Of a stretch of DNA of 64,000 nucleotides, positions 8,317-45,164 are shown piece by piece. A program made the translations under genes and the position numbers. This stretch comes from a virus. Under the pieces are notes generated by a model, which was not told where the DNA came from, did not search any database, and saw only the letters and a list, made by a program, of their open reading frames with translations. Within the stretch, counting starts at the first letter, position 1, and each line of letters starts with the position of its first letter. The DNA lies in IMG/VR virus record IMGVR_UViG_3300044213_000107, positions 1 to 64,000 of that record. One strand, 5' to 3'.

Positions 8317-8345
8317 ATTATACGACAAAGAAAAATTATTGTCTA
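8317..8345 (-). promoter_or_regulatory. sigma70-like promoter TAGACA-N17-TATAAT
   Basis: -35 TAGACA (8340-8345) and perfect -10 TATAAT (8317-8322) with 17-base spacing, reading toward queD. The same -35/-10 words recur at 39976-40005 and 55537-55565, suggesting the phage's early promoter class. Confidence 0.7.
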
Positions 8346-16662: not shown

Positions 16663-17931
16663 TTAGTAATAGATACTATAAATTTTCTTAACATCTAAAT
16701 CTGGATGAAAGCGTTGTACTTGGTCTAAACAAAAATGTATTATAGCATAATCATCTGCAAATTTACTAGAGCGTGTTAGTTCTTTCATATAACTATGGGC
16801 AAATCTAATTTTTTCATAGTCTGATCCAGTGAAGTCGCAGTCTAAATTATCGGCAACTTGATCTGCGACTGATTGCGGAACGCTGGCAATACCAAAGTTA
16901 ATGTCTGCGTGCCAGACTAAATTTGGTTCAGCAATACTGAAACGATTTTTGGGATAACGCTTAACCAAGTACCGCCAGAAATCCATAACATGATGAAAGT
17001 TTAAACTTGTAAGTGTAGTAATTACATTTACCTTAACTGACTTACCTAGCAGTTGTTGTTCTAGTTGCCATGCCATGAGTAAATCAACATTAGATTCTAT
17101 GCTAGGCCAATCACTTGGTGTTCTTTGGATGTAGGCTATTTCGTCCATGCCATCTAGGCTTAGATTAAGTTCTATAGTTTGATATTTGCTCAGAGTATCA
17201 AGCAAGCGACGATTAATATTTGTACAGTTGGTACTGGGCCAAACTTTTATCTGTTGACTGTATCCTAGTTCTACTAGTCGTTCTAAAAAATCTATGTTTT
17301 CTTTAACCAGTGTGGGTTCGCCACCTGTGATAAACAAACTGCGAATACTGTTATAATGGTCTGCAAATACCCGTTCTAGTCCAATTGACACGGGCCAATC
17401 AAACACAGTATTAAAATCTGTGTCGTGATTAAGTGGTGGAATGATACCTGGAACAAATGTTAGTTCCTGTGGTGTGTCGACAAAGCGTTTAAAAAACTTA
17501 CCAAAGTTTGTGCTAAATGCAGGATTACACATTTTGCATGCAAGGTTGCAAAGATTCCCTGAACTAACTTGAAAGTCAAATGCTAACTTAGATAAGCGAC
17601 CATTATTTTCTTTGGCTTCTGTGATACGGTCTTGTATAGATTCAACGGGAATTCTATTTAATGTTTTAAGTCGTAGACTATTGCCGGCGGCAGCTTCTTG
17701 TTCCCAACACACACGACATGCTTCGGGCTTTTCTCCGACAATTAAACTTTGTCTAAGGCTTTGTAGCCGATCACTGTTCCAAGCTTCTGTTAGTGTGTGC
17801 GTTGCAATGTTGTAGACATCACCGTTGGCATCCGTGTGCTCGCCGCTTATTGCCGCACAACAATATTTTATTTCACCGTTGGGTTCGATGTCAGTGTGTG
17901 CAAACGGATAAGGACAAATCGTTGAACTCAT
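16663..17931 (-). CDS. radical SAM protein with N-terminal SPASM-like domain (B)
   Basis: 422 residues. N-terminal cysteine domain CPYPF (Cys6), PNGEIKYCC (24-25) and CRVC (72, 75), then the barrel motif SGNLCNLACKMC (Cys128, 132, 135), identical in spacing to protein A, and ITGGEPTLVKEN. The C-terminal part carries NLSLDG and NVITTLTS strands. Substrate unknown. ATGA overlap with the small membrane gene upstream; 20 bases ahead of gp43. Confidence 0.88.
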   Translation of the reverse strand: MSSTICPYPFAHTDIEPNGEIKYCCAAISGEHTDANGDVYNIATHTLTEAWNSDRLQSLRQSLIVGEKPEACRVCWEQEAAAGNSLRLKTLNRIPVESIQDRITEAKENNGRLSKLAFDFQVSSGNLCNLACKMCNPAFSTNFGKFFKRFVDTPQELTFVPGIIPPLNHDTDFNTVFDWPVSIGLERVFADHYNSIRSLFITGGEPTLVKENIDFLERLVELGYSQQIKVWPSTNCTNINRRLLDTLSKYQTIELNLSLDGMDEIAYIQRTPSDWPSIESNVDLLMAWQLEQQLLGKSVKVNVITTLTSLNFHHVMDFWRYLVKRYPKNRFSIAEPNLVWHADINFGIASVPQSVADQVADNLDCDFTGSDYEKIRFAHSYMKELTRSSKFADDYAIIHFCLDQVQRFHPDLDVKKIYSIYY

Positions 17932-21350: not shown

Positions 21351-22502
21351 CTAAGGGTGTTTTAGTAGCTGATACGCTTCGGGAAATGTATCGGCAAAAT
21401 TCTCTTTACGTAGGGAATCATACCCATCGGTAACACGTTTAAATTCTTGTAATAACTCCGGCGAATTATCGACACCCATCTCAAGCTGTGGAATCAAATG
21501 TTTCACAGCAGTATTGGTTAATTTATTTTTAACAGCTTGTTTCATTGAATCAGGTGCTATACGCATATTTAAGTGCAATGGTCTATGCAGTATATTAAAT
21601 CCACATGTTATTCCACGTTGGTTAAAGTACTGCCATATATCACTGGCATAATATATATTTAACAAACTTACAGTAACACATACACTTAAAACAACATTTG
21701 GATTTTCTGCAGCTAACTGTTGATATTTTGATAAGTTAACTTCAATCTCTGACCATTTTGCAGGATAACGCATATACTCAAATTGTTTGCCAATGCCATC
21801 CATGCTAATACCTATATCAACACTACGAAACTTTTTAAAAATTTCATAGTAATCATCTCTCCATACGGTTCCGTTAGTGTTTATGTGTATATCTACCGTA
21901 TCGGCTAAAGGCAGTTGGCTTGCAGCAGCAAGTAGTGACCAAAGAGGTTCAATTAGCAACGGCTCGGCGCCGTACAGGTCATAATAAACTATATCTTGAG
22001 CCCATTGATTTAATGTAGCCCAGGTTGCACTATCATCGGCAAAACTTTGTTGCGCACCACGAAACTGTTCTAGATAAACGGGATACGATGTTTCATCCGC
22101 TTCCACATGATAGTAATCACGAATCCAACGACTGCTCGTATGAGGGTTACAGTGCCTACAAGCAAGGTTGCACAAATTACCGGGCTTGAGCATAATAACA
22201 CGAGGATGGTCCGTAGGTATAACATTGGCAAACTGTTCATTACTTAATAACCTTTTACTGCGCCTTCCGGCTGCTTCTTCGTCCCAGCAGTCTTGGCAGT
22301 TGTGATGTTGCTGATTTGATTTTAATGCACTGGCAATTTCTTGTCTTGTGGGACTCGCCCATGCGTCTTCTAGCGTATGTTGATCAAGTCGAATAAGTGA
22401 TTGATCGTGATGTTGAAACCAAACACGACTTTGATTACACATTGATGCATAGCCACCATTTTGTGTACTTAGTCCTAGATCGGCTAACACACAATAGGTC
22501 AT
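21351..22502 (-). CDS. radical SAM protein with divergent N-terminal Cys domain (C)
   Basis: 383 residues from ATG 22502, an ATGA overlap with the upstream radical SAM stop. N-terminal Cys at 4, 22, 69 and 72 (NCQDCWDEEAAGR) match the SPASM-like domain in sparse form. The radical SAM motif is NLCNLACRHC (111, 115, 118). The glycine motif is YGAEPLLIEP, with Ala replacing the usual second Gly of GGEP, which may alter SAM binding. Paired in one operon with protein D. Confidence 0.85.
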   Translation of the reverse strand: MTYCVLADLGLSTQNGGYASMCNQSRVWFQHHDQSLIRLDQHTLEDAWASPTRQEIASALKSNQQHHNCQDCWDEEAAGRRSKRLLSNEQFANVIPTDHPRVIMLKPGNLCNLACRHCNPHTSSRWIRDYYHVEADETSYPVYLEQFRGAQQSFADDSATWATLNQWAQDIVYYDLYGAEPLLIEPLWSLLAAASQLPLADTVDIHINTNGTVWRDDYYEIFKKFRSVDIGISMDGIGKQFEYMRYPAKWSEIEVNLSKYQQLAAENPNVVLSVCVTVSLLNIYYASDIWQYFNQRGITCGFNILHRPLHLNMRIAPDSMKQAVKNKLTNTAVKHLIPQLEMGVDNSPELLQEFKRVTDGYDSLRKENFADTFPEAYQLLKHP

Positions 22503-23635
22503 TGAAATTCGGGCCAAAGATCGGCAAATTTTAGTGGACTATCGGGCCAGTATGTGTGTTCTTGTTCTGCATGCCAATCGTATAAGGTTTGAGTTTCTGC
22601 ATCGGGATTGTTGGCCTTAACTAAATTAGCAGCTTGCTCTTTAAAAAATTCTGCGGACTGTGGATTATATTTGATACTTTTAATTAATTCTCGTGCAGAT
22701 TGTTGCATAAATTTGTTAGGCAAACTAAATGCACTCAATCTATGTGGATGTGTTAGTTCTGCCCAACGTATTGGTGGCAGTTGGTTGTCTGCAAAATATT
22801 CATGTATGCTGCTAATATCTAAACAATTATACACACTAAACTGACCAGTTACATTAACACTTTGATGTGGTGCAGCATCTTTTAATGTTTGTATGTTGTG
22901 CAGCATCAACTGCCAGTCTGCCCCATGCCGCACATATTCAAAACGATCTTCTATGGTTTCAAAACTTATATCCCAGGTAACATTGTCAAGCTCGGTTAGT
23001 CTACGAAATATTTTATTTTTTTCTAATGGAACACTAAGATTGGTTATTACATTTATGTGTACTGAATTGTCAATGACATCTAGTAGTAGTTCGTTTTCTT
23101 TTTGTAACAACGGCTCACCACCAAGTAGTCCTAGATTTTTAATTGTGCTGCGATGCTGAACAATATAATCCATTATGCCTTGGATGTCAGCATAGTCTGC
23201 ACGTTCAAGTGGGTGTCCTTTTAATTGAGCCCAAATACTGCTAGCTTCTGACCCACAGTATACACAACTTAAATTACAGGTATTTGACCAACGAATGTCG
23301 AGATTTTGTAGTGGTTGATCTTTTAAACTAACAATAGGTATAGTTCGACGTTCGGCAATATCGTTATACCATGTGCGTTCTGTTACAGGAGTGTGTCGTT
23401 CGCGATCAATGCAAATGCGGCAATTATCATGTTCTTGATTATTAACAATAGCTGTTTTAATTTCATCTAGTAGACTATTGTTAATTGCAGAATCTAAACT
23501 AACTTCTCGCAGATTTCCCAATTCTGTTTGGCCAGCACAACAGGTCTTATAAACACCCAACGGGTTTATATGTATATTTGTCCAAGGAGCATAGCAAAAG
23601 TTTGACCCAATATCCGGGGTTAAATTGATTGTCAT
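22499..23635 (-). CDS. radical SAM protein with N-terminal SPASM-like domain (D)
   Basis: 378 residues. N-terminal CYAPW (Cys14), PLGVYKTCC (32-33), LGNLREV and CRIC (72, 75) form the SPASM-like domain; the barrel motif is SNTCNLSCVYC (120, 124, 127), followed by LLGGEPLLQKEN. It most resembles protein A by eye. Late-like TTAAATAC sits three bases before ATG. Function unknown; tandem organisation with C suggests two successive reactions or two related substrates. Confidence 0.88.
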   Translation of the reverse strand: MTINLTPDIGSNFCYAPWTNIHINPLGVYKTCCAGQTELGNLREVSLDSAINNSLLDEIKTAIVNNQEHDNCRICIDRERHTPVTERTWYNDIAERRTIPIVSLKDQPLQNLDIRWSNTCNLSCVYCGSEASSIWAQLKGHPLERADYADIQGIMDYIVQHRSTIKNLGLLGGEPLLQKENELLLDVIDNSVHINVITNLSVPLEKNKIFRRLTELDNVTWDISFETIEDRFEYVRHGADWQLMLHNIQTLKDAAPHQSVNVTGQFSVYNCLDISSIHEYFADNQLPPIRWAELTHPHRLSAFSLPNKFMQQSARELIKSIKYNPQSAEFFKEQAANLVKANNPDAETQTLYDWHAEQEHTYWPDSPLKFADLWPEFQ

Positions 23636-24361: not shown

Positions 24362-26254
24362 TTACTTTTTTGTGTACTGCTTACGCAATAGTACCTTAAT
24401 AAGATTTTGAACCCTAGGATCAGTAGGTGGCAACATAGTCTTTTCAACGTGCCAATAACCTAGAGTTTTATCTTCCCAGCTGCCAAATTTGACAATTTTG
24501 TTGACTCCTGGGCCAAACTGTGCCTGTGCCATAGCACCCAGAGATTTGACAGAATCTGGTACAAAAGTCATGGTGTAGAATTTATTGACATTTTGACCAT
24601 CAAGTTTAGCTCGAAATTCTTGATTTTGTACTCGAGATACTATGCGAGTTTTGGCCTGAGCATCGCCGGCCTGTATCGAAGAAGCCGTCAACTTGATACC
24701 ATTGTTTTCCAAACCTGCTTTGGCCACTTTGTCAACATCAGATCGACCAGTATACACACTGGCCGTGATCATGGGCGCACCCTTGGTACGCACAAAATCC
24801 AGCACTCGTTCTATGGCAGTGTTTTTTTGTATTTGATCAGTATCAGGGCCTTGCATTAACTTAGCCAACTTGGACTGATACTCTTGACGATAAGCAGCAG
24901 GATCGCTGGCTATGATCATGGCACGCACAAAACGTCCTATCACATTGTACACACCCTGAAAGTCCTGTAGATAGTTGCCACCAGCATGTCTAAAACTAAT
25001 ATACTTGCCGTTGTTGCTGATACTACTGGTATGGCTGCCAGTGGCATTGTTGGCTATGCTCTGCAACATTTTCAAATCTGTATCTTTATTGACTGCGTTC
25101 TTTACCAGGTGTCCCTGCGCACTGCGGGCATAGTCATTGTGCTCGCGACCAAAGTATTTGAGCACATATTGGTCGCCCAGAAATACTGCCAATTTTAACA
25201 AATCCAGTTTCTGCGGAATACTGACATTGATGTGTAGGCCAGTGGTTTTGTTGGTATACAGTCCCTGTTGCTGAGCCAAGGCATAGAAATTCTTGACAGC
25301 ATCTATGGCTTCGGCCACCGGCAAGGGCGGACTCACTATTTCGGCACTGGCATCTTCGTCTTTGTCAGCAGTCAAACTGCCGTCGGGCTCGATGTACCAG
25401 TTTTTTAAATTTTTGTCTTCTTGATGATAGCTGTCAAACACAGTGACCTTGCGTCCCATGACAGACTGTATTATGGGTTTGAGTGCATCGGCCGCTTTTC
25501 TATAGAGTCGGTCATCGTCATCATCGTAGTCATCATCGGCGTAATCTTTGAGATTTAATTCTGCCCATACTGCCGAAGGAGAGTATTGAAAAAATCGGCT
25601 GGTGTGACGGTCTATACCCATGCTAGCACCAGTCAACCATGACAAAAATCCATTCCAGCTTGATGAGTCATCAACGGTACGAACTATCTCTGATCCTACA
25701 GCAAATATTTTTGATTTGTTGTAGTCTGCATACACATATCGACCAAACAGTCTTGCGAATCGCATCTGATCCTGTAGGCTGGTACTGTCAAAGGAAAAAT
25801 CAGGTTTGCTGTCGCGCATCAGCTTTAGAGCTTTTTTGGCACATTTTTCTTTTACATCATCAGGCAGCTTGTTGTAGAGTTCTATGATTTTTGGCAGGTG
25901 GCCCGAATACCAGACTTGATAAGCCTCATTAGCAGTACGGAATCCGCGATAGGGTCTTTTGAATTTGAACAAGGAGTCAAACCATTTGGTAGAAAGTACC
26001 ACACCGTTTTCAAAAGTTGAGCCAACGTTGTTGTCCCAAACATTGGCATAGTACATGGCATCATCTGCTTGCTTGGCAGTGATCGTGGCATCATCTGATG
26101 TTTTTTGAAATACAGCCGGGGGCACATGCACTTCAAATTCAAATCCGATTAATACACCAGCACCCTGCCCTTGCTCAATGGCGTTAGCAAAAGCACTAGG
26201 ATTCATTGGTGCTTCAACAACGCTGCGTGATTCAATGATGTCTTTTATATACAT
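24362..26254 (-). CDS. amidoligase-family protein with capsid-targeting-like N-terminus
   Basis: 630 residues. Amidoligase (COOH-NH2 ligase) landmarks are GFEFEVHVPP (about 38-47), then EPDGSLTADKDEDASAEIVSPPLP (shown only to 20 residues: DGSL...AEIVSPPLP) and TGLHINVSIP. In that family these acidic and His residues bind ATP/Mg and substrate to form amide or isopeptide bonds. An internal acidic tract (YADDDYDDDDDRLY) and a long C-terminal region are extra. The N-terminus MYIKDIIESRSVVEAP resembles T4 capsid-targeting sequences with IIE and VVE cleavage-like sites, as in the next genes. Confidence 0.7.
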   Translation of the reverse strand: MYIKDIIESRSVVEAPMNPSAFANAIEQGQGAGVLIGFEFEVHVPPAVFQKTSDDATITAKQADDAMYYANVWDNNVGSTFENGVVLSTKWFDSLFKFKRPYRGFRTANEAYQVWYSGHLPKIIELYNKLPDDVKEKCAKKALKLMRDSKPDFSFDSTSLQDQMRFARLFGRYVYADYNKSKIFAVGSEIVRTVDDSSSWNGFLSWLTGASMGIDRHTSRFFQYSPSAVWAELNLKDYADDDYDDDDDRLYRKAADALKPIIQSVMGRKVTVFDSYHQEDKNLKNWYIEPDGSLTADKDEDASAEIVSPPLPVAEAIDAVKNFYALAQQQGLYTNKTTGLHINVSIPQKLDLLKLAVFLGDQYVLKYFGREHNDYARSAQGHLVKNAVNKDTDLKMLQSIANNATGSHTSSISNNGKYISFRHAGGNYLQDFQGVYNVIGRFVRAMIIASDPAAYRQEYQSKLAKLMQGPDTDQIQKNTAIERVLDFVRTKGAPMITASVYTGRSDVDKVAKAGLENNGIKLTASSIQAGDAQAKTRIVSRVQNQEFRAKLDGQNVNKFYTMTFVPDSVKSLGAMAQAQFGPGVNKIVKFGSWEDKTLGYWHVEKTMLPPTDPRVQNLIKVLLRKQYTKK

Positions 26255-26259
26255 ATCAA

Positions 26260-26267
26260 TATTTATC
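26260..26267 (-). promoter_or_regulatory. late promoter box GATAAATA, stop-codon overlap and leaderless layout
   Basis: Its TAA (26263-26265) is the stop of the upstream deaminase fusion gene. The predicted +1 falls exactly on the A of the amidoligase ATG at 26254. Confidence 0.55.
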
Positions 26268-27795
26268 GTAAACTTAAAGCTTGATCTTGTTGGCTAGCAT
26301 ATGCTTTATGTAGTTTATCAATATAACCCAGGTTTCGTAATATTTTAAATGATAAGTTTTCTACGCCAAACTCGCCATGTTTGTCTAATCCCGATCTGCG
26401 CATTTGTTTTAACTTATATACAATTCGTATAATATCTTCGGGGTCGTTGGCTTGATTTACTGCAACATCTATTTGTTTCATTAGATCACGTGTTTTTGCA
26501 TTTATAGCACGATCATCAATTTGTGGGCGATCAAATTTGGGTTCCTTAATCCACTTTCCGTGTAATAAACTGTAAACACCGGCACTAACAGGAGGATTGT
26601 TAACATCCTCGACATACATTTCTACTTCATGTCCGTATATGGTAATATCATGTTCGGTATTCCAAATACGCTTTTTCGCAGAATAAAATTTTTCTGCTAG
26701 GTCATCACATTTTAAGTCTGCGTATTTGGTTACTACATGTACATCAAAATCACTGTATTTGGTATAGTTGTAGTTAGCCATACTTCCTGTTAATACTACA
26801 TCAATGACACGAAAATCTGGTATGTCTAAACTGTGTGTAAAAAATAGTGCAGTTTTTAATAACTGTAATTGCACCCGTGGATCAATGTCATTATCATGCC
26901 AGACCCGCGGATTTAATGCATCGTGGTAAGCAACATTGTTCTGTACATAACTTTCAGCAACAATAGGTTTATTTTTATAATATTCTGGAAAGCGTCGCCC
27001 AAACTCTCTCATGATAATGCCGGCAACTGCATTAGCTTCATTTTCTTGATCACTGCCAGTTTCGCCGTCACTGTAGTTTAAATTGCCTGTTTGATCCTGG
27101 CGAAAGTGTGTCAACTCATGGCCCATGGTTCTTACAATGTCTAACGGATGACGATTCGCAATACCAAGAACCATTTCACTTTGATCTGCATCATAATAAC
27201 CGAATGTTGGTTGTCCACCTTGTGGCGGTATTTCTCGAACTAGCTTTATTCGAGGTACATGTGTAATACCAATTATCTCTGCGGCCATTGGCAAAAAGTC
27301 CTGCATCATAGCGATAAAATCGTCGTCGCTGGTTTCAAGAAACTCATTGGCAATAGACTGACAAATTTTTCTAATTTTAGGATTAGACGTTTCAACTTCG
27401 GCAAACTGTCGTTGCTCTCCGTGCTGTGTTGGATCCTTATATCCGCAGTAGACTTTTTTAACTGTGCTTTGATTTATTAAATCTGTACAACTTGATTGAT
27501 ATCTATCATCCATGTCTTGATTGCATGGACTTAGTGTTGTGACAATGATACTACCTTCGGGTATATCACCATACTTGTTTTGATAGTTGTCAATTGCTAC
27601 TCTTTCGGCATGCACACGTTGACCATCTGGTCCTGGAGAATTCACACCAACTGCAATACGATGGTCGGGATCTAATACACAGGCTGCAACTAATCCAAAG
27701 TCTTGTTGGCTTTTTTGTCCATTGATGACTGCCTGGCAAAGTTCAATCAATACCGAGTCTAAATGCTGATAGTTACTGACTTCATTGTCTTTCAT
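26263..27795 (-). CDS. RibD-like deaminase / zincin peptidase / nucleotidyltransferase fusion
   Basis: 510 residues from ATG 27795 (ATGA overlap with dps). Three domains are visible. (1) A zinc deaminase with VHAER and TTLSPC-11-C, the RibD-type spacing rather than PCxxC. (2) A metallopeptidase-like segment with TMGHELTHFRQD and a downstream Glu in ENEANAVAG. (3) A pol-beta-type nucleotidyltransferase with VLTGSMANYNYTKYSDFDVH, the GS and DxD residues, and HEVEMYVED. All catalytic residues are kept. I know of no standard enzyme with this order. Located in the capsid-cargo cassette but without a targeting-like N-terminus. Confidence 0.75.
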   Translation of the reverse strand: MKDNEVSNYQHLDSVLIELCQAVINGQKSQQDFGLVAACVLDPDHRIAVGVNSPGPDGQRVHAERVAIDNYQNKYGDIPEGSIIVTTLSPCNQDMDDRYQSSCTDLINQSTVKKVYCGYKDPTQHGEQRQFAEVETSNPKIRKICQSIANEFLETSDDDFIAMMQDFLPMAAEIIGITHVPRIKLVREIPPQGGQPTFGYYDADQSEMVLGIANRHPLDIVRTMGHELTHFRQDQTGNLNYSDGETGSDQENEANAVAGIIMREFGRRFPEYYKNKPIVAESYVQNNVAYHDALNPRVWHDNDIDPRVQLQLLKTALFFTHSLDIPDFRVIDVVLTGSMANYNYTKYSDFDVHVVTKYADLKCDDLAEKFYSAKKRIWNTEHDITIYGHEVEMYVEDVNNPPVSAGVYSLLHGKWIKEPKFDRPQIDDRAINAKTRDLMKQIDVAVNQANDPEDIIRIVYKLKQMRRSGLDKHGEFGVENLSFKILRNLGYIDKLHKAYASQQDQALSLR

Positions 27796-28226
27796 CTTAG
27801 GCTTGACTTTAACATCCACCCGTGTTTTTCATGTGCATCCATGCGTTCAGCAAGGAAGTTACTAAATCCATGTTTGCCTTCGGCTTCGGCTAAATCATAG
27901 ACTATTTTAAACATACCAATGGCTTTTTGATTGTCTTCAATAAGTTGATGTACCATGGCCATCTGTGGCGGTATTTCTGTTTCATCTTCGATTTGTGTTA
28001 GTACACTAAATCTAGTGTAGCTGGCCGGCACAAATGCTCCTAGACTGCGAATCTTTTCTGCAAAGTCGTCAATCGCATCATAAACTTCTTCGTAGATTTT
28101 ACCAAAAAGACCGTGATACTCATAGAAGTCAGCACCAGTTACATTCCAGTGATAGTTGTGTGCTTTTAGATAAAAGCTGAATTCTGTGGCAAATGCTATT
28201 TTTGCTGCTTTTTGTAGTTCATCCAT
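27792..28226 (-). CDS. dps: Dps-like ferritin
   Basis: 144 residues, slightly shorter than bacterial Dps. The ferroxidase centre is clear: KAHNYHWNVTG, then FYEYHGLFGKIYEEVYDAIDD (shown as two parts: FYEYHGLFGKIYEEVYD and DFAEKI), and a second helix pair ending EKHGWML. Dps dodecamers oxidise Fe(II) and bind DNA, protecting it from oxidative damage. The gene sits between the large cargo protein and the deaminase fusion with one- to four-base junctions, so it is made with the putative capsid cargo. Confidence 0.88.
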   Translation of the reverse strand: MDELQKAAKIAFATEFSFYLKAHNYHWNVTGADFYEYHGLFGKIYEEVYDAIDDFAEKIRSLGAFVPASYTRFSVLTQIEDETEIPPQMAMVHQLIEDNQKAIGMFKIVYDLAEAEGKHGFSNFLAERMDAHEKHGWMLKSSLR

Positions 28227-28228
28227 TG

Positions 28229-31207
28229 TTATACCTCATATCCTGCTTGACGCATTTCTAACAACATACTATCAAGTAAGGAATCATAATCTTCTTTAAT
28301 GTGTCCACCTACAGGACTGGTGCTGTCTACTGCCACCGGCATGTTGCTGTCTTCTGTTTGTCGAGCAGGTCTGCAATCAAGTATAGTAGCATTATGTCGT
28401 TCTGCCCAATCACGTGCGGCAGATTCACTGCTAAACACTCGTGTTGCTAATACACGTTGATCTCTACGATTATACACATAATAACGACATTCTACTGCGG
28501 TGTTTTCGGCCAAATGCCATGCCGCTTGGTCCGCATCATGATCTGGTCTTACTGCTTTATTTTTTTGTACTTCGGCAGCACCTAGTCCTAGTTTGGCTCG
28601 ACGCTTTTTTTCTGCCATTTGTGTTTCGTAGTCTTTTATGCCGTGATAAACTTCACCGTGTGGTGGTTGCAAAGGACGATCCTTTGACACTAGATTTTTA
28701 ACATCAGAGTAGTTTATTTTTGGTTTCTTTTTAGGACTTTGAAATCCGAAGATACTTTCTTGTTCAATGTCTTCGTGCCATTGATTGTTGCTGCCGGCCC
28801 AAGCATCTCCTTGATCGCTATGCCATTGGTTGTCAGCGCCTGTCCATGCATCTTCGTCTACACTTTGCTCACGAATAAAATCGTCATCGCCGTAGTGTAA
28901 TTCCCAAGGCTCAATAAAATCATCGTCATCACGTTGTCTTGGTGCTATACCAGTGCCATGACATACTCTGCAACTGGTATTATCAGTAAGTCCTTCGCCA
29001 GTGCCACGACATGTATAACACTCGTTATCAGCATCTTCTGGGCCTTCGGACACTTTTGCTACTGGTGGTTTTTGCTTGGCTATCTCTAATTCATTTGTTG
29101 TAACAACTTTAAATTGTGCGCCGCCACCGCGTGCCAATAGTGTTTTAATTTTATCTGCGGAACCATAGTTATCACCGGCAACTACAACAGTTCCATCGGG
29201 TTGGATTTGTTTTATAACTCTAGTAACAAAAGCATGATCTGTATTAGGATACTGTTTTTGCACTGCCGCTAGTCCACGTTGCAATGCTTGTGAGGCTTGT
29301 TGCATTTGTGGAGTTTGCTGACTATCTTCCGCCACACCTTGCTTACCTCCATGGACGGCATTTAATAATAATTGGTATAGTGCTTTTTTAGCAAGATCAA
29401 ATGATGGGAATACTTGTTTGTTTTTTGTACTTCTGTTTACGTAAATTTTGTATACATTACCTTGTTTTACTAAACGATATTCGTTTCCATTTATTGTTTT
29501 AAGGAATAATAACTTAATATGTGCGGATGGATCATCTGATATTGTAAACTCACCTTCCGCCAATTGTTTACCGGTCAAAGTTATAGTTTTATCCGGATTC
29601 ATTCTAATAATTCTGTCGTTTAATAAACTTGTATAAACATGACGTTGTGCAGGTGTAATACCATTTCTATCTATCTTAAAAGGCAGATTATGATTTTCTG
29701 CTGTTTCAATGGCCTTTATTAATAATATTTTACCATGTCCCAACCCTCTGACGTCGGAATGTATCATGGCATCATTCTCTACATCATTTGTTTCAGGGAA
29801 ATATTGATAGGCAAAAAATCCTGCTTCTCTACCGTCTACGGCCAGTTCAACTTCAAATGATGTTTCGTAGTTATCTCTTGAGAATATGTTAAAAGATGGT
29901 TGTGATTGTTCTGAGCCTTCCGCCACACCTTCTTTGTATGTAACAGGATCAGTTTGTTTTAAAAATTCGTCAGGATCAAAATCTTTTACACTATAGGATT
30001 CGATATAGTCTTTATAATTTGATAATTTTTTAATTATCTCGGGGGAATTGTTAATCCACATAGCACGAGGAACATCTAATACAGTATATTGTCCTTCTGA
30101 CATTAATTTTATATTGTTATAATGTTCAGGAATCCCTGGCATAAATGTAGTAAAATATTTTAATAAACTCATTAGTGATGTATAATTTTTATACAAAGGA
30201 TCTGTTTTGGAAGTAGTAGACATTGACACCGCGGTTGCAATAGCAGGCATTATTGGACCATTTGGGGCAATAACCTCATCGATTAATTGCTGACGCAAAT
30301 TCTCTTTAATTTTTGCATCTTCAGAATTAGTAGTATTTTGATTACTAGTATTATTTTTTGACGGGTTCACTGTAGATTTTTGTGATGCCGGTTCCGTAGG
30401 ATTGATATTATTTTGCCATGAACTTCTAGTATTTTTTTGTTGAAAATTATCTTTTGATTGAACATATTTTTTAATGTAATCGTATACGGCCTCTGCTCCA
30501 GAAAATGCTGCAGTCGCTATTCCTATACTTGCTAAATCGATACCTACTTTCTTTAAAAAATTTCTACGATTGTTATTAGGTGACTGGTTGGGTTGTGCTT
30601 TAGGCGGCTCTTGCGAAGCACGCTCTGCATTCACTGCGTCCAATATTTCTTTTTCGGTAATGTTGTACTTACGCATCAATGCCGATAATTGTCTTTTCAA
30701 TAAATCTGTTTCGTGCTGAGGTTTATTATGACTATTTTGTATTTCTTTATATAATTGAATACAACTATTTAACGCCCCATCTCTTGTACCAGCCTCCGCT
30801 ACACCTTGTAAACTCTTGCGAATAGCAGCAGAAGTTTTATCAATCTGCTTACCAGTGGCCCGCATTACATTGCCCATACGGTCTGTGGCTTGGCGGTGCT
30901 TGCCAGCAGCAGCAAGTTCGTCTGCAGACTTTCGAGCCTTTTGTTTATAACTAGACAATGTGTCTGAACTTAGTTCGTCAACTATTTCATCTTGGCTTTC
31001 ATCTGCAGGTCTTGTATAAACTTGTTGTACATTTTTTGGATCTTTATCAAGGATTACATTCGGCAATGGTGCATTTTTATCTTTTGCAAAATGCTGGCGC
31101 ATGTCTGCAACGCTAGGTGTTGGTTTAGGTGCAGGTTTTTTAGCAGGCTGAAAATGAAAAATTCCTTCTACAGATTTTTCTTTTTCAAATAAATCGCTGA
31201 TAAACAT
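28229..31207 (-). CDS. large modular protein with GVAEG sites (candidate capsid cargo polyprotein)
   Basis: 992 residues. The N-terminus MFISDLFEKEKS resembles that of T4 Alt, a packaged protein. GVAE sites occur near residues 135, 427 and 624, plus LAEG near 550. Modules between them: helical region; about 212 RRNFLKKVG before a hydrophobic helix; a GNAT-like domain at about 440-530 (DVRGLGHGKILLIKAIE); a segment after 624; a DnaJ-type zinc pair CYTCRGTG and CRVCHGTG near 730-752; two 13-aa DAW repeats; and a C-terminal domain with WHLAEN. In T4 the gp21 protease cuts after LxE/IxE, so the GVAE-G sites may be processed. Function inferred, not shown. Confidence 0.6.
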   Translation of the reverse strand: MFISDLFEKEKSVEGIFHFQPAKKPAPKPTPSVADMRQHFAKDKNAPLPNVILDKDPKNVQQVYTRPADESQDEIVDELSSDTLSSYKQKARKSADELAAAGKHRQATDRMGNVMRATGKQIDKTSAAIRKSLQGVAEAGTRDGALNSCIQLYKEIQNSHNKPQHETDLLKRQLSALMRKYNITEKEILDAVNAERASQEPPKAQPNQSPNNNRRNFLKKVGIDLASIGIATAAFSGAEAVYDYIKKYVQSKDNFQQKNTRSSWQNNINPTEPASQKSTVNPSKNNTSNQNTTNSEDAKIKENLRQQLIDEVIAPNGPIMPAIATAVSMSTTSKTDPLYKNYTSLMSLLKYFTTFMPGIPEHYNNIKLMSEGQYTVLDVPRAMWINNSPEIIKKLSNYKDYIESYSVKDFDPDEFLKQTDPVTYKEGVAEGSEQSQPSFNIFSRDNYETSFEVELAVDGREAGFFAYQYFPETNDVENDAMIHSDVRGLGHGKILLIKAIETAENHNLPFKIDRNGITPAQRHVYTSLLNDRIIRMNPDKTITLTGKQLAEGEFTISDDPSAHIKLLFLKTINGNEYRLVKQGNVYKIYVNRSTKNKQVFPSFDLAKKALYQLLLNAVHGGKQGVAEDSQQTPQMQQASQALQRGLAAVQKQYPNTDHAFVTRVIKQIQPDGTVVVAGDNYGSADKIKTLLARGGGAQFKVVTTNELEIAKQKPPVAKVSEGPEDADNECYTCRGTGEGLTDNTSCRVCHGTGIAPRQRDDDDFIEPWELHYGDDDFIREQSVDEDAWTGADNQWHSDQGDAWAGSNNQWHEDIEQESIFGFQSPKKKPKINYSDVKNLVSKDRPLQPPHGEVYHGIKDYETQMAEKKRRAKLGLGAAEVQKNKAVRPDHDADQAAWHLAENTAVECRYYVYNRRDQRVLATRVFSSESAARDWAERHNATILDCRPARQTEDSNMPVAVDSTSPVGGHIKEDYDSLLDSMLLEMRQAGYEV
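28769..28852 (-). repeat. tandem 13-aa DAW..NQWH repeat
   Basis: Two 39-base units (28814-28852 and 28769-28807) encode DAWTGADNQWHSD and DAWAGSNNQWHED, separated by two codons, inside the large modular protein. Confidence 0.75.
29324..29341 (-). repeat. GVAEG-site repeat, copy 4 (GVAED)
   Basis: Minus strand CAAGGTGTGGCGGAAGAT, encoding QGVAED at about residue 623 of the large protein. Near-identical to copies in two other genes. Confidence 0.7.
29914..29932 (-). repeat. GVAEG-site repeat, copy 3
   Basis: Minus strand GAAGGTGTGGCGGAAGGCT, encoding EGVAEG at about residue 426. Identical over 19 bases to copies 1 and 2 in other genes. Confidence 0.8.
30791..30808 (-). repeat. GVAEG-site repeat, copy 5 (GVAEA)
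   Basis: Minus strand CAAGGTGTAGCGGAGGCT, encoding QGVAEA at about residue 134; two silent or site changes relative to the main form. Confidence 0.65.
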
Positions 31208-32631
31208 TATTTCATTGCTCCTGCAGATTTAACCAAGTTTGCTAATTGTTGTCCTTGGGGACCTTGTAAAATTTTACCTAGTGCTGGCGCCATTTTACTT
31301 ATAGCAGCTTGATCAGCGGTGCTCATAGGTGCACCTGTTTCGGCTTTTTGTAATGCTGGTCCAGTTTTAGCTGGATCTACATCAACACCGGCAGTTTTTA
31401 GAACGCCAAGATTCTTTTGTTGTAATGCTTGTTGTTGTTGTAGTTTTGCAGCATCTTGAGGTTTGTTTGCACCACCAGCGGTTGTTTGTGCCATGGTTGT
31501 TTGTGCAGTGGGTGTGAGATCTTCTGCCATATCCTCATCCATGCTGCCTTTTAATAACCCTGCTTTTTCCATAGCTGCCGACGATTCGGGCCCTAACTTT
31601 TGTACACCACTAGCAACACCTTTAGCATTGATGGCAATATATGGAGCAGGTGTCCTTACCATTCCGTTGTTAGACACAATGTATGTGTTGTTTTGTGTAT
31701 CCAATACCGCTTTAACTGTTTGTCCAGCAAAAGGTACAGTAGTTAAAGTAAATCCATTGCCTAGATCTTGTTGTGCATGTGCACCTAGCGCACCCAATGC
31801 CATGGCCCCGCCAACAACTGCATCTTTCCAGCCTTCCGCCACACCTTCATTAGGCACACAGTTGTTTACACGCACACCACCTTTGATCTTTGTACCTTCT
31901 TTGTGCTTACCAGTCCAGCACTTGGGATCTAGGCGTGTTTTAATTTCGTTTACAGCTGCACCTGTGGGTACAGCACTTTCGCAATTCCACTTGCGTAGTG
32001 CTTTATTGATACGGCTATTTGGATCTCTCTTGGTCTTGGCTCCAGTACGATGTTTCTTCATACCTTTCATACGAGCACAAAAACTCTTACGACGCTTTGA
32101 GGCCTTTGAGCCTTTCTTTAACTTGCTGGGTTTGGTTGTGACTGCAGTTTGTAGTTTGCTACCAGGATGACTACGACGATAACTTGCTACACCTTTTTTA
32201 TTCAAGCCGCCATTTTTATTCTTACCTGATGACTTTTGCCAGGCTTCTGCTTCGGCTAATAATTCTTCATCATCACAGTCATCGAAATCTTCCCAGATTA
32301 GATCTGCGTCAACACCATTTTGTTCAGCAATTGACTCAATCATTTCTTCAATAATGTCAAACTGCGAATTTAACAATTGTTCTTCTACTAGTAGATCCGC
32401 CTGAAACTGTTGCCAAGCTTCACTGATTTCCCGATGAACATTTCGTTCTTTGCTGGTACGATCAAGTTCTGGTAGTACACTTTCGGCGGCACCAACAAGG
32501 CGACCTTTGAACGGATGTTGCTTACCACCAGTCTTGGCTTTTTCAGTTCCACGCACTTGATCGCCGGGTTTTTGTCCTACCGCTTGTCCGGCGAACTTAT
32601 CCATTGATTCTAATAGTTTACGCATGTCCAT
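31207..32631 (-). CDS. basic, Cys-containing structural-type protein with GVAEG site
   Basis: 474 residues from ATG 32631. The N-terminus MDMRKLLESMDKFAGQ fits a short capsid-targeting-like helix with an LLE site. Residues about 150-250 are a strongly basic domain (YRRSHPGSKLQTAV, KASKRRKSFCARMKGMKK, KRDPNSRINKALRKWNC) that I recall as a recurring phage domain and that could bind DNA. EGVAEG lies at 262-267, followed by a hydrophobic AVVGGAMALGALGAHA, a beta segment, and an Ala/Gln-rich C-terminus. Its TAA overlaps the next ATG. Likely a packaged or head-associated protein. Confidence 0.6.
   Translation of the reverse strand: MDMRKLLESMDKFAGQAVGQKPGDQVRGTEKAKTGGKQHPFKGRLVGAAESVLPELDRTSKERNVHREISEAWQQFQADLLVEEQLLNSQFDIIEEMIESIAEQNGVDADLIWEDFDDCDDEELLAEAEAWQKSSGKNKNGGLNKKGVASYRRSHPGSKLQTAVTTKPSKLKKGSKASKRRKSFCARMKGMKKHRTGAKTKRDPNSRINKALRKWNCESAVPTGAAVNEIKTRLDPKCWTGKHKEGTKIKGGVRVNNCVPNEGVAEGWKDAVVGGAMALGALGAHAQQDLGNGFTLTTVPFAGQTVKAVLDTQNNTYIVSNNGMVRTPAPYIAINAKGVASGVQKLGPESSAAMEKAGLLKGSMDEDMAEDLTPTAQTTMAQTTAGGANKPQDAAKLQQQQALQQKNLGVLKTAGVDVDPAKTGPALQKAETGAPMSTADQAAISKMAPALGKILQGPQGQQLANLVKSAGAMK
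31830..31848 (-). repeat. GVAEG-site repeat, copy 2
   Basis: GAAGGTGTGGCGGAAGGCT on the minus strand, encoding EGVAEG between the basic domain and the hydrophobic segment of the 31207-32631 protein. Confidence 0.8.
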
Positions 32632-32632
32632 A

Positions 32633-33130
32633 TTAATATACACCTTTTCCTACTTGCACCACCTGAGGTCTACGAATAACATTGCTGATCTTTTTTGGTT
32701 TTCCAGTTGGTGGTTTTCCACCTAATTCACCGACCACCGCACCAATGCTGGCTGCACCAGTTGCACCACCAGTTGCATCTTCTTTTAAGGAGCCTTCCGC
32801 CACACCTTCCTCTAACACAGCCGTTAATTGTTGTTGAGCTGACTCCATAGCAAACTCGGGCATGCCTTCGGCTTCTTGGCTTAATTGATCATACTCTAAA
32901 TATTCACGCACAGTTTTTAAATAGTCTGCAGCAATGCTGATCTTTTCACTGACCCATCCATCGAGCCCGTCTAGTTCTGATACTCGTTTTAATAGTTTGT
33001 GCAATTCAATTGCATCTTTTGCAGCGTGATAACATTCTTCACGAGCCATTTGTACTTCGTGGTCTTTGTGCATAGCATGTGCATCATCGCCGATAAATTC
33101 ATTTTCTACGATAAAATCTGTGGTTTTCAT
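32633..33130 (-). CDS. candidate capsid-targeted protein with GVAEG site, 165 aa
   Basis: The N-terminus MKTTDFIVENEF is strikingly like the T4 internal-protein targeting sequence MKTYQEFIAEA, including the FIVE/FIAE site. The middle is acidic and helical (HKLLKRVSELDGLDGWVSEK). EGVAEG at 108-113 separates it from a Gly/Ala-rich C-terminal part (GATGAASIGAVVGELGG) with a basic end. Overlaps nothing upstream and has SD AGGAT; a CTAAATAC box precedes it, so it may start the cassette's late transcript. Confidence 0.6.
   Translation of the reverse strand: MKTTDFIVENEFIGDDAHAMHKDHEVQMAREECYHAAKDAIELHKLLKRVSELDGLDGWVSEKISIAADYLKTVREYLEYDQLSQEAEGMPEFAMESAQQQLTAVLEEGVAEGSLKEDATGGATGAASIGAVVGELGGKPPTGKPKKISNVIRRPQVVQVGKGVY
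32791..32809 (-). repeat. GVAEG-site repeat, copy 1
   Basis: GAAGGTGTGGCGGAAGGCT on the minus strand, encoding EGVAEG at 108-113 of the 165-aa protein. Identical to copies 2 and 3. Confidence 0.8.
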
Positions 33131-33151
33131 GGTAATTATCCTGGGTATAGT

Positions 33152-33159
33152 GTATTTAG
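33152..33159 (-). promoter_or_regulatory. late-type box CTAAATAC
   Basis: On the minus strand, 21 bases before the ATG at 33130, with TATACC and AGGAT following. Directly abuts the TAA of the 33160-33426 gene. Confidence 0.4.
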
Positions 33160-33426
33160 TTAGCCGATATTGAACACAGTATCTGAACTTTGACCGTTAA
33201 CCTGTACATTTCTTACACTAAATGTGCCGTTAGCATCGAGTGCTTCTAGTCTTACTGCATGTGTTCCGGGGTCAAGATTACAAATAACTGTTTCTTGCAG
33301 ATATATTTCTGCTGGCGGAAATCTAAAAGTTCTTTCGGTGATTAAATCACGATCAACATAAATCCTGTATGCCGGAGCAGCATCTGCGTAATCACAATAG
33401 ATATCTGCAGAGATCTTAACTTCCAT
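33160..33426 (-). CDS. small beta-sandwich protein, carbohydrate-binding-module-like
   Basis: 88 residues, entirely beta-rich: MEVKISADIYCDYADAAPAY, IYLQETVICNLDPGTHAVRL, then FSVRNVQVNG. The pattern of a short Ca-dependent xylan-binding-type module (CBM) with PGTH and a late DxxFNIG end is plausible. The 34524-34994 protein has a similar layout. Could decorate the virion or be an adaptor for the neighbouring enzymes. Confidence 0.55.
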   Translation of the reverse strand: MEVKISADIYCDYADAAPAYRIYVDRDLITERTFRFPPAEIYLQETVICNLDPGTHAVRLEALDANGTFSVRNVQVNGQSSDTVFNIG

Positions 33427-34492
33427 GTTGTGCTCGCAGTTGTTTTAGTTGATGTTGCAACTTACCTAATGTTTCTACTAAACGAAATGCACGAGCATTT
33501 TTCATTGGTGTATCTGGGTGCACATCCCGGGTTAGGCTCATGCTATAACGTGGGTCTCGCGCCATTTTAGCATTGCTGGCGACAACACCAACTCCGGCTG
33601 CTTCATTAACTGACAAATCTTTTATTAACTTTGATAATTGTTTTATCTGTTGCGCAACACGTTCTAGTTTTTCTTCGGTGCTGTGTTCTTCTTGTTCAAC
33701 ATGATCAACATCACGTTCTTCTTTGTCCAACACATACATCGCTAGTGCTTGATCGTCGGTTTTTGCTATTGGATACATAACACGTGCACGTCTGACTAAA
33801 AGATCAACTTTGGTGTTAGAATGCTCGTGGCTTTCGGCAACTGCTTTAGGTATTTTATCTAGAATTAACCCAATTTCTGGATCTGCACGACCATACAATT
33901 GTTTAATGTATTCTAATCTTGCAGTAGGATCATCCCGTACCATGTTCCAGAGATTCCTGCAGTCTGTACCATGGCTAGCATCGTATGTTTTGCCACCGAT
34001 TACTAAACTGGCCTTTACTTCAGGAACAATAATAACATAGCCATGTTGGTCAGCAGTAGTGGCTTCTTTGATGTTTTTCCAGGTTTTGAAGTAAGTTTCG
34101 TCACCGGCACGTATGCTTTTTGCAGGATTGTCTCGTTTATAAACAGCATCGGGTTGGAGTCTATCTGCATCTGGCGCCCCAACTGCAGTGATAAAAATAG
34201 TATTGGTTTTATCTATGCTGTCTGGTAATGCGTACACATTACTGGTTTCTACAACACGATCCTGCGGAACGCCGGCGGCAGTCATTAGTTGTATTTTATC
34301 GCTAAAATTAAAAGGACTTTTAGCGCCATCAGTTTTGTTGCTGGTTAAAATATACACCGCATCACGGCCAAATTTAGCCTGCAGTTGTTGAAAAACCGCA
34401 GCATGTCCACGGTGAAAAGGTTGAAAGCGGCCAGGATAAGTTACTACTATTCTGGGACCGCTTTCTTTTATAAACATTTCAGCAATAAACAT
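33416..34492 (-). CDS. NMN adenylyltransferase-like nucleotidyltransferase with targeting-like N-terminus
   Basis: 358 residues. After MFIAEMFIKESGPR comes VVTYPGRFQPFHRGHAAVFQ, the HxGH cytidylyltransferase motif of NMNAT/NadR, and YILTSNKTDGAKSPFNFSDKI, where a canonical ISxTxxR would bind phosphate. Such enzymes make NAD from NMN and ATP. The C-terminal third is a separate helical region with VAESHEHS near residue 216 and a coiled coil (EEKLERVAQQIKQLSKLI). FIAE, IKES and VAES look like prohead-protease sites, so the enzyme may be packaged and matured by cleavage. Confidence 0.7.
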   Translation of the reverse strand: MFIAEMFIKESGPRIVVTYPGRFQPFHRGHAAVFQQLQAKFGRDAVYILTSNKTDGAKSPFNFSDKIQLMTAAGVPQDRVVETSNVYALPDSIDKTNTIFITAVGAPDADRLQPDAVYKRDNPAKSIRAGDETYFKTWKNIKEATTADQHGYVIIVPEVKASLVIGGKTYDASHGTDCRNLWNMVRDDPTARLEYIKQLYGRADPEIGLILDKIPKAVAESHEHSNTKVDLLVRRARVMYPIAKTDDQALAMYVLDKEERDVDHVEQEEHSTEEKLERVAQQIKQLSKLIKDLSVNEAAGVGVVASNAKMARDPRYSMSLTRDVHPDTPMKNARAFRLVETLGKLQHQLKQLRAQHGS

Positions 34493-43928: not shown

Positions 43929-45164
43929 TTAAACCTCTAAAAATGGGAACAGTTCTTTCCAGTTTGTTCCACGACGTCGATCTAATTCATCAAAATATGT
44001 TACAAATCTTTTTATTTGAAATTCGTCCCTTTGTTTATTTTCTATAGTTTTAAATAACCCTAGATAATGATCATAATATGCAAGATTATTATTTTTCATA
44101 AAATCTATAATATTTTCAAAATCTTTACGCCAAAAATCTCCGCCCCATATTCCGAGATCTAAAAATGTTTTACAGGGATCTGTGTTAAGTTGAAATTTAA
44201 AATAATGTGGTTTAATATTCCATTGTAGTGCTTTTTCTAACAATGGAACTGTTTCTTTAATAGTAGTAGCAACTAAAGTTTGATTTAACCCAATATCAAT
44301 ATCTACGTTATGATTTAAACAATATTCGATATTACGTTCAAACACGGTTAAGTCTAATCCAAATCTAGTGAATTCGCTCATTGGTCCCCAACCATCAATA
44401 CTTCCTGTAATATGTGGTTTACCTAATAAACCACGTTCAGTAAGATTTGCCAATCGATCTATTTGTTTTTCAAATATTTTTTCTTTTACCATTAGATTAC
44501 TGATAATATTTAAAATTAAATCTGGGCTTGGGTGCTCTTCAAAAAAATCAAATAAAAGATCAATTTCTTTTTCTAAAAATGGTTCTCCACCTAATAAATG
44601 CAATCTTTTTAATGCTTTATGATTATTACCAAGCCAGATAAAAAATTCATCTACATATTGTTCTCTATTAGGCAATTCTGGTTCGTAGTCATTTATCAAG
44701 ATGTCTAATTTTTTATTATAATAGTGACCAAATTTTTGATTTTCTTTTTGAATGCTCGAACTTAACATAGGATCACAGTAAACACACTTTAAATTGCATG
44801 TGTTGTTAACAAATATTTCTACTAATCGCGGTGTAACCGATAATGCAACAGGATTAGTTTCAAATTCTGGCGGAGTCCAATCATCATGGTCTTTGCCTAG
44901 ATGTATCAATCTATCACTGGTTCCCCCGGCTGCTTCTACATCTCTGCAATATTCGCATCCATGCCCTGGCCATTGTCCGTTTAACATTAATGTTCTTTGC
45001 CGTATTTTTTCCGGTGTGTTATTAAAATTTTGAAAATCTTCAATAGGAACAGAGTGTAATTCTACTCTATGACAGTTCGCAGTCTTTCCGTTTGTTAGCC
45101 ATAGTGTGCTCCAGGTCCACTTGTTCAAACACGCGGCTTCATTTCGAATTGGAAATTTTGTCAT
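43929..45164 (-). CDS. radical SAM protein, twitch-type, paralogue (E)
   Basis: 411 residues. N-terminal Cys at 12, 31, 70 and 73 (ACLNKWTWST, ANCHRVE, GCEYCRDVEAAGGTSDR) and radical SAM NNTCNLKCVYC (123, 127, 130), with LLGGEPFLEKE. The Cys positions are the same as in protein F at 50641-51879 and the two are clearly paralogues. The C-terminus DELDRRRGTNWKELFPFLE is also shared. Substrate unknown. One-base overlap with the endolysin gene. Confidence 0.88.
   Translation of the reverse strand: MTKFPIRNEAACLNKWTWSTLWLTNGKTANCHRVELHSVPIEDFQNFNNTPEKIRQRTLMLNGQWPGHGCEYCRDVEAAGGTSDRLIHLGKDHDDWTPPEFETNPVALSVTPRLVEIFVNNTCNLKCVYCDPMLSSSIQKENQKFGHYYNKKLDILINDYEPELPNREQYVDEFFIWLGNNHKALKRLHLLGGEPFLEKEIDLLFDFFEEHPSPDLILNIISNLMVKEKIFEKQIDRLANLTERGLLGKPHITGSIDGWGPMSEFTRFGLDLTVFERNIEYCLNHNVDIDIGLNQTLVATTIKETVPLLEKALQWNIKPHYFKFQLNTDPCKTFLDLGIWGGDFWRKDFENIIDFMKNNNLAYYDHYLGLFKTIENKQRDEFQIKRFVTYFDELDRRRGTNWKELFPFLEV

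Follow-up and report, generated by a model that had tools for sequence, protein, structure and literature searches.

The window analysed here, 64,000 nucleotides in length, is part of the 260,723-bp record of a giant T4-type phage. Between its positions 24,362 and 34,492 lies a run of minus-strand genes, five of which (24362, 28229, 31207, 32633 and 33416, named by their first coordinate) begin with short tags that an earlier note had likened to T4 capsid-targeting sequences. All five N-termini are present as quoted there, and the Dps protein encoded among them indeed lacks a tag-like N-terminus. The genes and candidate sites are as follows (a slash follows the Glu of each site).

24362–26254, minus, tagged amidoligase, 630 aa (PF12224, E 2e-8)
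26213–26224, minus, SVVE/A site in the amidoligase
26231–26254, minus, amidoligase tag MYIKDIIE/S
26263–27819, minus, untagged deaminase–zincin-like–nucleotidyltransferase (NTase) fusion, 518 aa (PF00383, E 1e-12; PF01909, E 4e-4)
26953–26964, minus, IVAE/S directly ahead of the NTase domain of the fusion
27792–28226, minus, Dps/ferritin-like protein, 144 aa (PF00210, E 2e-20)
28229–31207, minus, tagged putative polyprotein, 992 aa, MFISDLFEKE/K
29325–29338, minus, joint repeat, one mismatch, in frame as GVAED in 28229 (GVAE/D at 29327–29338)
29555–29566, minus, QLAE/G in 28229
29916–29929, minus, joint repeat GGTGTGGCGGAAGG, exact match, in frame as GVAEG in 28229 (GVAE/G at 29918–29929)
30794–30805, minus, GVAE/A in 28229
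31207–32631, minus, tagged multi-module protein, 474 aa, MDMRKLLE/S (DUF6321, E 2e-15)
31832–31845, minus, joint repeat, in frame as GVAEG in 31207 (GVAE/G at 31834–31845)
31945–31956, minus, AVNE/I before the KCWTGKHK module of 31207
32251–32262, minus, LLAE/A before DUF6321 of 31207
32383–32394, minus, LLVE/E before the QFDIIE module of 31207
32633–33130, minus, tagged small protein, 165 aa, helical hairpin
32780–32791, minus, SLKE/DATGGATGAASIG tail of 32633, resembling the major capsid protein's N-arm
32793–32806, minus, joint repeat, in frame as GVAEG in 32633 (GVAE/G at 32795–32806)
33104–33130, minus, tag MKTTDFIVE/N of 32633
33416–34492, minus, tagged NMNAT/cytidylyltransferase-like protein, 358 aa (PF01467, E 3e-11)
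33833–33844, minus, AVAE/S site in 33416
34463–34492, minus, tag MFIAEMFIKE/S of 33416

Among the cargo domains proposed earlier, the amidoligase and NMNAT have the profile matches listed, whereas the GNAT-like module (residues 431–548) and the CxxCxGxG zinc-finger-like stretch (near 730–757) of 28229 give weak Pfam matches below the gathering cut-off. This protein carries additional VSE/G and HLAE/N sites and has no match in named phages, in which 33416 and 24362 found weak matches only; a search of viral contigs by peptide patterns for relatives of 28229 and the amidoligase confirmed none. The AlphaFold model of 32633 comprises two helices (4–53 and 58–111) and a disordered region (residues 112–165), that of the DUF6321 region is modest (mean pLDDT 68, pTM 0.49), and neither has a significant PDB match. 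Promoter and terminator scans were uninformative. The deaminase fusion is untagged, as had been stated, but its IVAE/S site precedes an NTase domain whose homologue is a virion protein; its zincin-like match is weak, and the deaminase and NTase give the chain the at least two disparate domains that mark polyvalent proteins. In relatives, NTase and zincin segments are fused in proteins of 1250–1860 aa that also bear the amidoligase motif. Related locus L024 (11024–12571) was considered as an ortholog of the entire fusion, with GVAE at the corresponding joint, but this was dropped because the deaminase part alone aligns.

In T4, cleavage by gp21 follows L/I-x-E, and a stretch of 10 residues is enough for targeting (PMC9026906). 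A pattern derived from T4 tags (M.{2,4}[DE][ILFVM][ILFVM].E) matched 9 of the 302 gene starts in this genome against 1 of 1323 internal Met (Fisher p 2e-6), and a looser one, which also takes MYI/MFI tags, 16/302 against 16/1323 (p 5e-5). The strict form, M[KR]xx[DE][FILV][ILV]xE, was found at 123 of 2083 starts versus 6 of 10580 internal Met across 194 related loci (p 4e-89), and in none of 173 genes from unrelated bacterial contigs. The tags are real and above chance, and the enriched form is that of T4 internal proteins, in which a gp21 site (L/I-x-E) closes a stretch of about ten N-terminal residues. The T4 likeness claimed for the five window tags is nonetheless uneven: 32633 alone fits both the T4-derived pattern and the strict one, the loose pattern is the only one that 24362, 28229 and 33416 match, and 31207, the weakest (with an alternative GTG start at 32643), matches none. 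The V/I/L/F-x-E site noted in each tag can be seen but was rejected as stand-alone evidence, since such sites are frequent by chance and the untagged Dps carries three. Nor are the tags confined to the 24–34 kb stretch; they are spread genome-wide, with further tagged genes at 90038, 90928, 145802, 150940, 152025, 220465 and 233348. In orthologs of 32633 and 33416 the tag is kept at the peptide level while the remainder diverges: the 15 aligned orthologs of 32633 conserve tag and tail, and those of 33416 start MFIAELFE, MFISELFE or MYITELFE, followed at once by the GRFQPFHxGH motif. Relatives with the amidoligase motif start MKITEFAHQ, MRFREFELTE or MKYREILEQVITE.

The earlier note had held that a genome without a prohead protease would speak against packaging. 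A profile search located a gp21-like Peptidase_S77 gene at 259479–260117 (PF03420, E 1.7e-25), adjoining genes for a gp22-like scaffold and the gp23 capsid protein (PF07068, E 2e-99); protease and scaffold are 54% and 42% identical to those of PA5oct. The genome thus has the gp21-type protease, scaffold and gp23 that accompany capsid-targeted internal proteins of the T4 type. S77 and gp23 are present in exactly the same 11 of 28 long related records. The other 17, including records of 343 kb and 214 kb, have neither and also lack a T4 portal match, and are therefore fragments or represent other head types; no HK97-type S78 protease was found in the records without S77.

Five internal GVAE joints, absent from the earlier note, lie within 28229–33130. 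In relatives, the tag Glu and the internal GVAE Glu are interchangeable module starts (MKFNEFITE/KWSQKYK versus EQGVAE/EWSQKYK): 58 HSP pairs from about 10 module families place the same module start behind a tag in one protein and behind GVAE in the other. The GNAT module follows a tag in related locus L054 and GVAE in 28229, and three 31207 modules are preceded by a Glu whose counterpart in relatives belongs to a tag or to GVAE. Starts and ends of BLAST alignments cluster at GVAE/ (495 versus 135 expected, random maximum 232; 389 versus 123, maximum 214). The capsid protein arm E/xATAGATSxGNVAT follows a Glu in 29 related proteins, 23 of them with a tag or GVAE, and related phages string many cargo modules together. 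Because of this interchangeability we take the window genes to be a cassette of cargo targeted to the capsid, in which two or three products are multi-module polyproteins with several predicted protease sites; since the modules are joined by (V/I/L)-x-E sites, the same protease would release several domains. The earlier proposal of a cassette of packaged enzymes stands as regards capsid targeting, which protease, tag conservation and virion homologues support, but it had missed the shuffled polyproteins.

Alternatively, the proteins could be packaged and lose the tag as in T4, with GVAEG a flexible linker and the polyvalent protein acting as a single chain after injection. The long fused proteins of relatives, which carry the same domains, are compatible with this, as is the prior description of polyvalent proteins as a class (PMC5512222). 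We consider it unlikely, however, given that the Glu of GVAE and that of the tag can stand in for one another where a module begins, that a plain linker need not end in (hydrophobic)-x-E, and that the non-GVAE joints of the window (LLVE/, LLAE/, AVNE/, IVAE/ and QLAE/) share the motif end.

The GVAEG joint is nearly invariant as DNA, GGTGTGGCGGAAGGC, with near-fixed codons (Ala is GCG in 88% versus 7% in the background), in contrast to the tags, whose codons follow background usage. The window holds four matches to the repeat at ≤2 mismatches against 0.16 expected. In one ortholog pair (L184 and L185) exactly two modules (222 aa) are present or absent between 18-bp repeats, and the joint therefore also looks like a recombination site. 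Such conservation at the DNA level might suggest that GVAEG is a selfish or recombinogenic repeat with no protease site, and that the tags are just the usual helices found at the N-termini of late structural proteins. Copies in other frames and between genes would then be expected, whereas the 18-mer is in frame in 153 of 153 viral copies (16 of 26 in bacterial genomes), all 153 lying in one frame of open genes; what is conserved in the tags, moreover, is the peptide, their codon use being that of the background, and the genome encodes a gp21-type protease, so that we find this explanation very improbable. A point against cleavage at the joint is that V-A-E carries V at the place where T4 prefers L/I. 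On balance we lean towards a dual-use joint, in which a repeat of 15–18 bp would serve both as a site of module recombination and as an in-frame prohead protease site freeing each module.

Homologues of two of the window proteins have been detected in virions by mass spectrometry (MS). Cyanophage S-CREM2 gp137, gp154, gp156 and gp160 are MS-identified virion proteins (PMC10665884), although the authors note that co-purification is possible. Of these, gp137 (DUF6321) and gp160 contain modules also present in 31207, and the C-terminal NTase domain of 26263 has its match in gp156 (E 4e-44). The NMNAT-like gp154 starts MKNFSSFLTE/A and is no more than a superfamily relative of the window NMNAT (E 0.03); NMNAT-like proteins occur in cyanophage virions (PMC9602691, PMC10665884). 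A T4-IP-like tag is borne by 3 of 50 MS-positive S-CREM2 proteins and 0 of 165 others (p 0.012); the strict tag matches none. Among relatives with virion MS annotation the nearest one found is PA5oct, in which the tagged gp333 and gp246 are MS-positive, as is gp135, a homologue of the 90928 module; 2 of 4 strict-tag proteins are MS-positive (p 0.19), and a relaxed pattern, picked after the N-termini were seen, gives p 0.004. As to location in the head, it is homologues (S-CREM2 gp137, gp156 and gp160, PA5oct gp135) that were detected, and MS reports presence in the virion rather than position inside. That the tagged proteins are external or tail components, as the label 'structural' of some in PA5oct might imply, seems scarcely credible considering their enzymatic cargo (amidoligase, NMNAT), the resemblance of the tags to those of Alt and the T4 internal proteins, and the tail of 32633 with its capsid-arm peptide.

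Taken together, we suggest that the cassette probably codes for cargo that this T4-type giant phage packages in its head, targeted by tags, released by protease and exchanged by modules at the joint. A tag of 8–10 residues (M-[KR]-x-x-[DE]-[FIL]-[IL]-x-E, or Alt-like MFIxELFE) would take the protein into the prohead core, where the gp21-type protease would cut behind the tag Glu. Polyprotein modules, linked by further (V/I/L)-x-E sites, mostly GVAE/G, would be freed by the same protease as separate domains inside the head (GNAT-like, basic Cys-containing modules, NTase and others) and would leave with the DNA at infection alongside cargo proteins of a single domain, among them the amidoligase and NMNAT. 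Modules may be gained, lost and swapped by recombination at the 15–18 bp in-frame GVAEG repeat. Cleavage at the tag and GVAE Glu, packaging of these exact proteins, their injection and a role in the host are what we infer. The tags would offer a sequence rule for locating proteins that giant T4-type phages bring into cells, and dozens of 'hypothetical' aquatic phage proteins would become testable candidates for injected cargo. In-frame swaps at a joint cleavable by the head protease would be a route to rapid cargo evolution; the dual-use joint, if true, would give the phage group an open-ended format, with release by protease, in which exchangeable proteins are carried into hosts. We also propose such packaging as an explanation for NMNAT and similar enzymes in cyanophage virion proteomes.

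Like IPI–IPIII and Alt of T4, these proteins have unrelated cargo behind similar N-terminal tags of about ten residues ending in (hydrophobic)-x-E, in a genome encoding a gp21-type S77 protease. T4, however, has few internal proteins of one module each, whereas here the tag family extends over about ten genes, an amidoligase and NMNAT are among the cargo, and some of the proteins consist of successive modules with sites inside the chain. Polyvalent proteins (Iyer et al., 2017; PMC5512222) similarly combine disparate enzymatic domains per chain, including GNAT, Pol-beta NTase and zincin, and their delivery with DNA is predicted, as it is here. Their processing was proposed to depend mainly on zincin-like peptidase domains, whereas in this phage it is the motif of the head protease that stands at the joints, an explicit tag is present, and the joint itself forms a repeat at the DNA level. 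In phiKZ and SPN3US a gp21-related protease processes many head proteins, injected ones included, behind (S/A)-x-E or a comparable site, and the sections of PMC9026906 consulted report neither a common short tag nor a modular DNA-repeat joint. The cyanomyoviruses S-CREM2 and S-SCSM1 have virion-associated NMNAT, SAM hydrolase, kinase and Cas9. No GVAEG repeat was noticed among the S-CREM2 proteins examined, and targeting tags go unmentioned in the S-CREM2 paper, although on inspection in this analysis several S-CREM2 N-termini show T4-like ones. Homologues of the DUF6321 and NTase modules of the present phage, together with proteins of its NMNAT-like class, were found by MS in cyanomyovirus virions.

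All five window N-termini that the earlier note had likened to T4 capsid-targeting tags were confirmed in the sequence. Among the 302 gene starts of this genome, 9 match a pattern built on T4 Alt and internal proteins, versus 1 of 1323 internal Met residues (p 2e-6); with a looser pattern the counts are 16/302 and 16/1323 (p 5e-5). Among the window tags, that of the small protein 32633 (genes are named by start coordinate) alone fits the T4-derived pattern, those of 24362 (amidoligase), 28229 (polyprotein) and 33416 (NMNAT-like) fit only the looser one, and that of the multi-module gene 31207 (MDMRKLLE) fits neither. Within a related set of 194 loci (2083 non-redundant ORFs, gathered by four homology searches), M[KR]xx[DE][FILV][ILV]xE occurs at 123/2083 starts versus 6/10580 internal Met. 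Since codon use in the tags follows the background, the tag is conserved at the peptide level. The V/I/L/F-x-E sites earlier placed at the tags are present as quoted; a lone hydrophobic-x-E is, however, uninformative, the untagged Dps having three. A GH19 endolysin with LysM (111824–112744 of the record; L004 9824–10744) has an N-terminus that resembles a tag and passes directly into a twin-arginine-like signal (MKISDVLNDDISRRGFLRG; the Pfam TAT_signal match, E 2.5e-4, falls just short of the cut-off), and a tag followed by a Tat-like stretch also occurs in related loci L081, L166 and L190.

The gp21-like protease that was to be sought elsewhere in the genome is encoded, with other head genes, in the linear 260,723 bp IMG/VR record (the window being its bases 1–64000):

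257146–258336, gp23 major capsid gene
258365–259465, gp22-like scaffold gene
259479–260117, Peptidase_S77 (gp21-type) gene

The nearest capsid-protein relatives are Vibrio phage 2.275.O, Sinorhizobium phage Phosso and the PA5oct group (68–69% identity). In a set of 28 long related records, S77 and gp23 are present together in 11 and both absent from 17; because neither a profile of the group's own protease nor a search for the T4 portal added matches in these 17, most are probably fragments. The records of L120 (342,865 bp) and L127 (214,006 bp) contain cargo modules and gave no S77, gp23 or T4 portal match; they may be incomplete, or belong to phages whose heads are of a different type.

Five copies of GVAE lie in the three neighbouring genes 28229–33130 and two in the tagged gene 90928–92562; one further copy, in a DnaJ-like gene of this genome, is probably due to chance. 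In relatives it divides modules (it is found 223 times, against 20 when the proteins are shuffled), and their alignments make the last tag Glu and the GVAE Glu equivalent as module starts, as in these pairs (slash, predicted cut):

MKFNEFITE/KWSQKYKSSINC and KEQGVAE/EWSQKYKSSINC
MRIKEIILE/SFDQPYPL (this genome, 90928) and LTQGVAE/AFDQPYAT (related locus L122)
MRAIEFIIE/DTVLQNQFDMIE and DEGVAE/DLELEEQFNIIE

In 31207, like module kinds sit behind LLVE/, LLAE/ and AVNE/, other sequences of the same (hydrophobic)-x-E form. PMC9026906 gives the specificity of gp21 as L/I-x-E. Judged by sequence, the tag, GVAE and 31207 joints have the form that would be expected for a protease with gp21 specificity.

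Capsid proteins of this phage group carry E/xA[ST]AGAT[SQ]xGN[VI]AT near the position at which T4 gp23 is cut. In 29 related proteins, of which 23 have a tag or GVAE, this peptide stands behind a Glu; its form in 32633 is SLKE/DATGGATGAASIG. The AlphaFold model of 32633 has a helical hairpin (residues 4–111), then a disordered tail holding the last sites.

At the DNA level GVAEG is nearly constant, with Val as GTG in 106/120 (background 19%) and Ala as GCG in 105/120 (background 7%). All 167 exact 14-mers of the joint in related loci lie within open genes and share one reading frame, as do all listed copies of the joint 18-mer from a viral-wide scan (at least 153 copies); only 26 matches to the 18-mer turned up in 257 Gb of genomes from bacteria and archaea, that frame being the longest in 16. 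L184 and L185, orthologues of 32633 with ends 92% and 96% identical, differ by the presence or absence of two whole modules (71 + 151 aa) at one joint, and the shorter, with AAAAAGTTTCAGCAAGGTGTGGCGGAAGAGTGGAGTCAA, matches exactly what results when the longer one's two ends are joined over 18 shared bases. Protein-level indels at GVAE were found in the further pairs L203/L207, L025/L059, L046/L048 and L089/L106. Module swapping at the DNA joint is thus supported by one DNA-checked exact indel, four protein-level pairs, and the frame and codon evidence; since some indels in related proteins have no GVAE at the joint, it is not the sole route of module change.

When gene starts of cyanophage S-CREM2 are set against its virion mass spectrometry (MS) table (from PMC10665884, a paper that does not mention targeting tags), the T4-like tag (M[KR].{1,4}[DEQSRK][FILV][ILV].E) stands at 3/50 MS-positive genes versus 0/165 others (p 0.012):

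SAM hydrolase, MKDFDSFLEE
gp13, MKDLHSFLTE
cytidylyltransferase, MKNFSSFLTE

Also MS-positive are gp137, with the DUF6321 module of 31207 (E 6e-19), gp160, with its KCWTGKHK module (E 2e-5), and gp156, matching the C-terminal domain of 26263, the untagged deaminase/zincin-like/nucleotidyltransferase (NTase) fusion (E 4e-44). In PA5oct, tagged gp333 and gp246 are MS-positive, as is gp135, a homologue of the 90928 module; the strict-tag test has four cases only, and the relaxed-tag association (p 0.004), its pattern set after the N-termini were inspected, is suggestive only. By eye, tag resemblance is also seen in S-CREM2 kinase gp14 (KRFDAFLTE) and in virion-detected, Cas9-like gp12 (LRFASFMAE/A; OR473000.1 7704–10313, L247).

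Nine related loci (L107, L112, L120, L127, L142, L143, L144, L154 and L166) encode single chains of ~1250–1860 aa that unite domains split over 26263 and 24362; they carry the amidoligase motif EPDGSLxxD, and in most of them BLAST also aligns an NTase and a zincin segment with 26263. This genome has a second amidoligase at 95233–97449 (L003; PF12224 E 2e-10; start MRYTDIKPLSEQQLSE). Some ten of its proteins have, by eye, radical-SAM/SPASM-like Cys patterns (FCYAPWTNIHINPLGVYKTCCAG and similar), elsewhere in the record and at these window positions:

8336–9505
16663–17931
21351–23635
43929–45164
50641–51879
52814–53869

We suggest that the prohead core would recognize the tag, by analogy with T4, that a cut would fall after the tag Glu, as tag/GVAE equivalence strongly suggests, and that GVAE and similar joints may also be cut, the modules staying with the DNA and then being injected. 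Virion presence is reported for homologous proteins, and the amidoligase, NMNAT and NTase suggest that the cargo may modify proteins or nucleotides at an early stage of infection. No paper found in the open-access literature describes the GVAEG joint or DUF6321; already known are the T4 internal proteins, the phiKZ/SPN3US ejection proteins, polyvalent proteins and virion NMNATs.
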